From Bacteroidota bacterium (GTDB taxonomy: Bacteria; Bacteroidota; Bacteroidia; Chitinophagales; Chitinophagaceae): DNA of 64,000 bases. The position numbers and the translations under genes are program-made. Below the pieces are notes generated by a model, which was not told where the DNA came from, made no database searches, and worked only from the letters and a program-made list of their open reading frames with translations. Below are positions 10,018 to 49,166 of the stretch, in pieces; within the stretch, counting starts at the first letter, position 1; every line of letters begins with the position of its first letter. The DNA is taken from assembly GCA_018266555.1 (NCBI GenBank), contig JAFEAF010000009.1, positions 62,001 to 126,000 of the forward strand, written 5' to 3'.

Positions 10018-10062
10018 GTCATCAGGAAAGATATTTCCCAACTACCGGTACTCTTTTTCCCC
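10018..10062 (-). pseudogene. Duplicated 3' end of nadE (remnant)
   Basis: Read leftward, this stretch encodes GKRVPVVGKYLS and a stop, almost identical to the true nadE C-terminus GRRVPIVGKYLS at 10980. About 40 bp are conserved between 10021-10060 and 10979-11018. The homology ends abruptly at about 10060, and no more of nadE can be recognised further right. Together with the lipoprotein remnant at 10843-10977 it shows that a convergent lipoprotein/nadE junction was duplicated. Confidence 0.75.
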
Positions 10063-10163
10063 TTGCCTTCGTGTCCCACGAACCAAATTTACTAACTTTA
10101 AAGTGTGCATGAAGATGTAGCCTATAAGCGAAAATCATATATTGAGATTGGGGAAATATTTAC

Positions 10164-10680
10164 GCCGTTGTTGGTGTTTAAATTTAAAGATTTTTTACCT
10201 ATTGTTTTTTCACACCAACAACAAGAGCTTTGAAGGAATCAATCTTAGGTTTTCAAATTATGCACACCATCATAACTGAATTCTTACGCCGTTGTTGGTG
10301 TTCAAATTTAAAGATATTTTTTTCTATAGTTCTTTCACACCAACAACAAGAGCTTTGAAGGAATCAATCTTAGGTTTTCAAATTATGCACATCATCATAA
10401 CTGAATTCTTACGCATTATAATGACTGAACTATAGTTTGGTTGTTGGTGTGGAATTTTACGCCGTTGTTGGTGTTCAAATTTAAAGATATTTTTTTCTAT
10501 AGTTCTTTCACACCAACAACAAGAGCTTTGAAGGAATCAATCTTAGGTTTTCAAATTATGCACACCATCATAACTGAATTCTTACGCATTATAATGACTG
10601 AACTATAGTTTGGTTGTTGGTGTGGAGTTTTACGCCGTTGTTGGTGTTCAAATTTAAAGATATTTTTTTCTATAGTTCTA
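10164..10680. repeat. Tandem array of a hairpin-bearing repeat (four copies, 124/173 bp period)
   Basis: Each unit begins with a 56-57-bp element whose ends are perfect 11-bp inverted repeats, GTTGTTGGTGT and ACACCAACAAC. Copies lie at 10167-10222, 10291-10347, 10464-10520 and 10637-10680 (the last is cut off). Copies 2 and 3 are identical, and copy 4 matches them as far as it goes. Copy 1 differs in the loop but keeps both arms. The segments between copies are also near-identical (they start AAGAGCTTTGAAGGAATC), so they are not CRISPR-style unique spacers. Units 2 and 3 carry 49 bp more than unit 1, bounded by TTACGC direct repeats, including a lone GTTGTTGGTGT (10440-10450, 10613-10623). 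Every copy contains TAAATTTG on the minus strand, matching the -7 promoter consensus. Confidence 0.9.
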
Positions 10681-10688
10681 TTTCCCAG

Positions 10689-10730
10689 CAACGTCTCCCG
10701 CCAAGCCTTCTGTGATAGCCGGGGACGTTG
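10689..10730. repeat. Imperfect inverted repeat within gene-remnant sequence
   Basis: CAACGTCTCC (10689-10698) pairs with GGGGACGTTG (10721-10730) with one G:T wobble across a 22-bp loop. It begins 8 bp right of the point where the fourth hairpin repeat stops. Read leftward, 10686-10860 would encode a peptide with residues such as NLAQRPRLSQKAWRE that looks like part of a real protein, but I do not recognise it. Confidence 0.45.
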
Positions 10731-10842
10731 CGCCAGGTTATCTATTACTTCCATTTTTACAAACACAATATCATCCATTCCCAAATAGTTATTCATGAAA
10801 CATCCTGGCTTATGCACAAAGCCCGGTAAGAAGATGTTGCCG

Positions 10843-10977
10843 GGAATAAGTTTATTCTCTGTAGCCAGCAATGATTTTACAATAATCACTTTGTCCGACA
10901 CACAATTGGTAGTTTCATTTCCCTATACACCACCATCAGGTTCAACAGTACAATTGGTGGTGACATTTATTCACTAA
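10843..10977 (+). pseudogene. C-terminal fragment of a second lipocalin-like lipoprotein
   Basis: The peptide NDFTIITLSDTQLVVS ... STVQLVVTFIH closely parallels the C-terminus of the intact lipoprotein upstream (SDFTLVSLTETQLVLS ... TTQNAVVTFIH). An ATG-started frame from 10795 exists, but everything before about 10843 is unrelated and lacks a signal peptide, so the gene has lost its 5' two thirds. It ends 3 bp before nadE, in the same convergent arrangement as the duplicated copy at 9556-10062. Confidence 0.75.
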
Positions 10978-10979
10978 AA

Positions 10980-45997: not shown

Positions 45998-46055
45998 CAT
46001 CCTGTGAACAAATAGATTTTTTTGAATAGACCGGTGACTCCTATTTTTGCAGCGT

Positions 46056-46275
46056 TCTGGTTCCCGATACATCGGGATGAAAAGGGAAGTCCGGTGTACT
46101 TGCCCGCCGTAGGCAAAGAGTCCGGCGCTATCCCCGTAGCTGTAAACAATGCCCAAACCTTAAAAGAGTTTTGGGAAATTTTCTCAAACTACAAACCACT
46201 GTCCCGATATGCAGGGACGGGAAGGAAAGTGAGAAAAGTTGTAAGCCAGAAGACCTGCCAGTACACTAACAATAT
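46056..46275 (+). ncRNA. Cobalamin (adenosylcobalamin-type) riboswitch
   Basis: The conserved blocks occur in the right order: GGTTCCC, AAAGGGAAGTCCGGTG, then after an extra helix (GCCCGCCGTAGGC) GAGTCCGGCGCTATCCCC, GTAGCTGTAA (B12-box core) and finally GCCAGAAGACCTGCC (46245-46259). Peripheral helices TCCCGATACATCGGGA (46062-46077) and GTCCCGATATGCAGGGAC are visible. It precedes a BtuB-like receptor gene, the standard target. Cobalamin binding should lower expression. The expression platform would lie between 46276 and the ATG at 46393; CGCCGGGGCGGC (46329-46340) is a candidate anti-start helix. Confidence 0.93.
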
Positions 46276-46392
46276 TTTCCCTGAGATTCGTCGAAGGGTT
46301 GCTTTCGGGTGAAAAGCGGTAATGTAAACGCCGGGGCGGCATTTATATTTATCATCATTTTCCTGGAAGCAGTCACTAAAAAATTTTCAGAA

Positions 46393-49094: not shown

Positions 49095-49166
49095 GGTCTC
49101 GTAGTACAATGGATAGTACGCAAGTCTCCGGAACTTGATATCCCAGTTCGATTCTGGGCGAGACTA
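49095..49166 (+). tRNA. tRNA-Arg (anticodon CCG)
   Basis: Folds as a cloverleaf: acceptor GGTCTCG / CGAGACT (ending in a G:U pair at 1-72) with discriminator A, D-arm GTAC..GTAC, anticodon stem CAAGT / ACTTG with loop CTCCGGA (anticodon CCG), and T-arm CCCAG-TTCGATT-CTGGG. No CCA is encoded, as usual in this phylum. A damaged partial copy lies about 50 bp upstream, and a GIY-YIG gene begins 14 bp downstream. Confidence 0.92.

Follow-up and report, generated by a model that had tools for sequence, protein, structure and literature searches.

The DNA analysed here, 64,000 nucleotides of a contig from a member of the Chitinophagaceae (hereafter the window), contains between the convergent ends of a lipocalin-like gene and nadE a series of hairpin-bearing repeats, raising the question of what kind of element such an array represents. 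The original prediction had considered structured RNAs with a built-in promoter as well as a non-autonomous mobile element or a relic. According to the evidence given below, the array very probably consists of internally deleted REPtrons arranged head to tail, that is, REP elements from which the RAYT-type transposase gene (REP-associated tyrosine transposase) has been deleted.

Structure of the hairpin array

Both arms of the hairpin, GTTGTTGGTGT and ACACCAACAAC, are present in three copies as perfect 11-bp inverted repeats, and the copies follow each other at 124, 173 and 173 bp; arms and spacings are as predicted. The repeat unit, however, starts five bases before the arm and thus earlier than had been assumed, with a conserved unpaired ACGCC, the foot. 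Copy 1 extends from 10162 to 10222 (foot at 10162–10166, arms at 10167–10177 and 10212–10222), copies 2 and 3 including the foot from 10286 to 10347 and from 10459 to 10520, all on the plus strand. In contrast, the supposed fourth copy (10632–10679, plus strand, arm part 10637–10679) is a left half only, broken by another repeat. Moreover, two single arms, at 10440–10450 and 10613–10623, had been overlooked; in units 2 and 3, they form the inner arm of a second, right hairpin that is truncated in the window (10440–10451 and 10613–10624, plus strand) but complete in a copy on host contig C1 (L011:2339–2399). Nine arm matches with at most one mismatch were found, versus 0.72 expected. Units 2 and 3 show 98–99% identity. 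Copy 1 (10162–10285) is a mosaic. Its arms are unchanged and its loop is changed, as already noticed in the prediction; the loop is strongly diverged, whereas the leader after the hairpin shares 98% identity with that of copy 2.

Because the segments between the copies are near-identical and not unique spacers, a CRISPR array was correctly dismissed from the outset. An integron attC site was likewise rejected, as the arms do not match the consensus GTTRRRY/RYYYAAC. Searching the literature for this arm gave, among the matches listed, unrelated oligonucleotides only.

Folding of the hairpin as RNA beats 200 of 200 shuffles (z between –4.6 and –5.7) and is strong in both strands, and folding as single-stranded DNA does so as well (200 of 200, z between –3.5 and –4.2). 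A strong RNA hairpin on either strand might speak for small structured RNAs transcribed from promoters built into each repeat, all the more as a TAnnTTTG motif is found on the minus strand. This motif had been assigned to every copy, but TAAATTTG occurs in copies 2–4 only, while copy 1 has TAAATTTA, and the three matches represent a single one that was duplicated. A –33 TTG at the right distance from the motif is lacking, a promoter scan revealed nothing above shuffles, and the motif is absent from the hairpins of other species, which have unrelated loops. Furthermore, Rfam offers no match to the array, and the occurrence of the hairpins follows that of RAYT genes. Small structured RNAs as an explanation are consequently unsupported and considered very unlikely. 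In the whole window, the only Rfam matches are a cobalamin riboswitch at 46041–46276 and a tRNA gene at 49095–49166.

RAYT gene ends in the unit, insertion site and dispersed copies

The order within the unit is left hairpin, leader, ATGCACACCATCATAACTGAATTC encoding MHTIITEF (RAYT start), TTCTTACGCATTATAATGACTGA (RAYT end) and truncated right hairpin. The first eight RAYT-I codons are located at 10260–10283 in unit 1 and at 10385–10408 in unit 2 (both plus strand), and resemble the N-termini of RAYTs in relatives, M..IITE(Y/F/W), for example, MVEIITEF, MENIITEY and MKKIITEW. The RAYT-I 3′ end (..LTHYND-stop) follows at 10403–10428 in unit 2 and is fused to the N-terminal codons at 10558–10601 in unit 3 (both plus strand). 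In the 124-bp unit 1, the RAYT tail and the right arm are absent, having been lost between two TTACGC sequences. As only 8–9 RAYT codons are left per end, tblastn of whole RAYTs against the array gave no significant match, and the link of the unit to RAYT genes is based on DNA alignment with a genus-mate RAYT tail (L222, L219). In this genus-mate, G041, a RAYT reading frame (..YETGIDNWGFLTHYN.., ...SSALFYETGIDNWGFLTHYNELTLE-stop) continues straight into the same right hairpin as in the window unit (L222). Enclosing start and end of a RAYT gene between hairpins, the unit is therefore best read as a RAYT element whose middle has been deleted. Judged from its sequence, the 173-bp unit is an internally deleted, non-autonomous REPtron derivative, afterwards amplified locally.

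In genus-mates G041 and G132, the lipocalin-like gene and nadE abut without an array, whereas in the window about 900 bp separate them. The insert is composed of 40 bp repeated from the end of nadE, a RAYT-III 5′ fragment with hairpin, the array, and sequence of a second REP family together with a tail from a third RAYT. The REP-III hairpin TTCGTGTCCCACGAA and, starting at 10105, the initial 19 RAYT-III codons occupy 10068–10161 (plus strand), a stretch of 94 bp with 96.8% identity to an intact RAYT locus of G041 (L182). The left end of the array sits inside this RAYT-III fragment, and the junction at 10161/10162 is directly visible, as the window reads GGGGAAATATTT followed by ACGCC (AATATTT/ACGCC) versus AATATTTTTC and GGGGAAATATTTTTCTGG in the uninterrupted relative. 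On the other side, a REP-II hairpin with the C-terminal remnant of RAYT-II (10680–10793, minus strand) abuts the broken copy 4 and shows 81% identity to the flank of an intact host RAYT-II gene (L186). The REP-II family (AGCAACGTC...GACGTTGC; 10680–10846 in the window) has eight host copies, found near an intact RAYT on C1 (L068) and near a RAYT fragment on C15 (L070). Right-hand junctions are broken or rearranged, and an unoccupied site cleanly defined at both ends was not recovered. Hence, the earlier statement that the window encodes no obvious partner protein holds insofar as no RAYT gene is intact, but pieces of three are present. The nadE 3′ end (40 bp, 10021–10060) and a lipocalin-like 3′ fragment (10847–10979) occur as repeats flanking the insert.

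This location could also be taken to mean that a relic has been co-opted to end transcription in both directions or to stabilise the mRNA 3′ ends of the lipocalin-like gene and nadE, and REPs are often found between convergent gene ends (PMC3733652). However, good U-tract terminators are missing, with three weak matches on one strand as compared to 1.1 in shuffles, and the genus-mates, where the genes abut, do without an array, which is therefore not needed. Although improbable, this role would be compatible with an origin of the array from REPtrons, as the two explanations are not exclusive.

In line with the proposal of a non-autonomous mobile element, a DNA search of the host assembly (3.4 Mb, 32 contigs) detected the element at five other sites, on C1, C10, C18, C22 and C30, amounting to roughly a dozen hairpins at six sites in all. 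The most complete host copy is the one on C1 (L011), comprising about 200 bp with near-inverse ends TTTACGCC...GACGTAAA and a full hairpin at each end. Decayed copies with loops recognisably those of the window exist in genus-mates, and the exact 16-mer at the element start, ACGCCGTTGTTGGTGT, is found in 21 of 197 family genomes, as opposed to one with the reversed-pattern control. Between species, the arms are kept, whereas the loops are wholly different in sequence and length. Tandem arrays occur in at least three other genomes as well (G120, G022 and G039). The richest sampled genome has 19 canonical copies, and both this number and that in the host are far from the more than 100 dispersed copies characteristic of REPs and REPtrons. 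In genus-mate G132, a CRISPR-like array (GTCGCAGTGGTTACAAACTAATTCCTCACTCTTAT; L225, about 1685–1950) starts at a distance of approximately 130 bp from a decayed copy of the hairpin.

That the array arose by local slippage alone, without mobile origin, is thus hardly conceivable. The 98–99% identity of units 2 and 3 does indicate that the tandem step was local, and to this extent the tandem arrangement looks like local amplification, but dispersal of copies in host, genus and family refutes slippage as the sole origin; neither is the element unique to this locus nor is covariation absent (see below).

An intact cognate RAYT was not found in the host assembly, which contains only distant RAYTs (best E value 1e-18) and a frameshifted one on C2, and an intact RAYT with the window loop type was not found in the four genus members searched. 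In G041, such a gene may have been lost to assembly, as contig C8 breaks exactly within the RAYT tail (L219). With no cognate RAYT found, the host array is probably a relic that is no longer mobile, another of the options originally proposed, and mobility today is unlikely.

Association of hairpins and RAYT genes in Bacteroidota

In relatives, the hairpins adjoin an ORF of about 170 aa (L037, L052 and L053) or a broken ORF (L042). Two of the three ORFs score above the cut-off of NCBIfam NF047646 (REP-associated tyrosine transposase, REP_Tyr_transpos), the third just below, and the sole PDB match by sequence is TnpA-REP 4er8 (E value 2e-4). An alignment-based scan of GTDB representative genomes resulted in 80 RAYT loci, mostly from Bacteroidota (Chitinophagaceae, Pontibacter, Rufibacter, Mucilaginibacter, Dyadobacter and Flavobacteriaceae) plus one contig labelled Ignavibacteriaceae. 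When counting hairpins within 300 bp of the RAYT gene with both arms independently resembling TTGTTGGTG, at least one side is occupied in 76 of the 80 loci and both sides in 66, compared with 13 of 147 control windows. The flanking hairpins are in inverted orientation, with an NGCC foot outermost. Other RAYTs of the genus carry hairpins of their own, for example, TTGGTTCGTG-TCC-CACGAACCAA with a GCC foot, and hairpin and enzyme therefore appear, by sequence comparison, to diverge together. Near another RAYT of G041 (L184, 1610–2264), six near-identical hairpins CTGCGAGGCAGGATGCCTCGCAG represent a different REP family.

After removal of overlaps, 218 hairpins were left for analysis. The foot is CGCC in 88 and NGCC in 143 of these, with G, C and C at its conserved positions in 168, 165 and 164 hairpins, respectively, so that GTAG or GTGG tags do not apply; 5′ of the foot, merely a mild T/C preference is seen. 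Loops are mostly 4–5 nt long, TTNT being commonest, in contrast to the 34–35 nt in the window. Since the arms had been located separately, covariation could be tested. Stem positions 2–10 show 32 complementary double changes, while permutations give 6.1 on average and at most 16. The outer stem pair is Watson-Crick in 67 of 103 cases versus 31 in permutations. As the sequences are related, the permutation figures should not be taken as strict probabilities. The covariation bears out the early suggestion that the folded form matters.

The inverted ends of the roughly 200-bp C1 copy might alternatively be regarded as terminal inverted repeats of a MITE mobilised by an ordinary DDE transposase. 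However, both ends fold into hairpins of their own and are found on either side of RAYT genes, and RAYT codons are retained in the unit. Moreover, a 4-bp direct repeat was observed in one of 42 elements versus 0.73 expected, and the lack of target duplication beyond chance is as expected for IS200/IS605-like chemistry but not for DDE elements. A DDE-mobilised MITE can accordingly be given hardly any credence.

Origin of the array and relation to known REP systems

The array would thus descend from an element consisting of a RAYT gene with an inverted hairpin at each end and an unpaired (A)CGCC on the outer side of each hairpin. A deletion between short repeats (AACTG..) near the start codon and near the stop codon would have removed most of the gene, so that a hairpin, the 5′ leader, some eight codons from the gene start, a few from its end and the second hairpin were left. 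By analogy with TnpA-REP, which binds the folded single strand and uses the tetranucleotide as guide (PMC8266576), and with IS200/IS605 transposases, a RAYT acting in trans may have bound the folded single-stranded hairpin, with the CGCC foot as guide, and moved the element. The 173-bp units were probably multiplied on site by slippage or unequal recombination and not by repeated insertion, as suggested by the near-identity of units 2 and 3. Some findings count against the REPtron origin. Without an intact cognate RAYT detected in the host, present-day mobilisation cannot be claimed, the copy number is low in comparison to the hundreds in classical REPs, the loops are long, the right-hand junctions are disrupted, and the diverged loop of copy 1 beside a nearly identical leader is not explained by simple duplication.

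The closest known counterpart is TnpA-Y1 subclass 2.6 (RAYT group 5) of Bacteroidetes, whose genes are described as flanked by atypical non-GTAG structures that were found by hand and have copies elsewhere in the genome (PMC6006769). The elements studied here share the Bacteroidetes RAYT, hairpin flanks without GT[AG]G and the genomic copies. While the main text of PMC6006769 does not provide a consensus, the present hairpins can be defined by the CGCC foot and the NTTGTTGGTG stem. Motifs reported for the subclass are NH[LIV]H, WQ and YIH[QN]NP with a median HuH-Y distance of 82 (PMC6006769), and by comparison with this published motif description only, the present RAYTs have NH[ILV]H in 68 of 73 and YIH[QN]NP in about half of the cases, but mostly WE (66 of 74) and a HuH-Y distance of 76. 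Consequently, the hairpins seem to fit the subclass as described there, but the W motif and the HuH-Y spacing do not match cleanly. CGTC-tagged REPs (PMC3733652), reported from Bacteroidetes too, likewise have a C/G-rich tag, yet are without associated transposase, whereas the CGCC hairpins have one.

Classical GTAG REPs and BIMEs with TnpA-REP (E. coli, Pseudomonas and Stenotrophomonas) are alike in having tagged palindromes, inverted pairs, tandem clusters, a RAYT neighbour and an intergenic location. They differ from the present elements, in which the tag is CGCC and the stem sequence is common to genera across the phylum; in the present host, moreover, loops are long, copies are few and the unit retains RAYT codons. 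Similarities to IS200/IS605 ends and their non-autonomous derivatives are subterminal hairpins, a guide beside the foot, a single HUH/Y1 enzyme and the absence of target duplication. However, left and right ends of IS200/IS605 are not known to be inverted copies of each other, whereas those of the present element are inverted and symmetric.

The array is therefore an ordinary kind of element from a poorly described branch; elements of this type are known, but the Bacteroidota variety, tagged with CGCC instead of GTAG, is not well characterised, and the CGCC-footed hairpins described here provide a concrete case that extends across the phylum. An unexplained hairpin array is thereby identified as a piece of the RAYT/REP system, and the 'atypical' REPs of Bacteroidota gain a testable consensus, namely an NGCC foot and the NTTGTTGGTG stem. 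In addition, internal deletion retaining both gene ends offers an origin route for a non-autonomous REP unit. More tentatively, with chances somewhat below even, CGCC-tagged hairpins might constitute a third large REP superfamily, with a RAYT clade of its own, throughout Bacteroidota. Tag and stem would be constant in this superfamily while the loop could range from 4 to about 35 nt, so that recognition would reside in tag and stem and follow a guide code unlike that of GTAG. As guide rules have been derived from GTAG systems alone, a CGCC guide with a co-evolving enzyme allows testing their generality.
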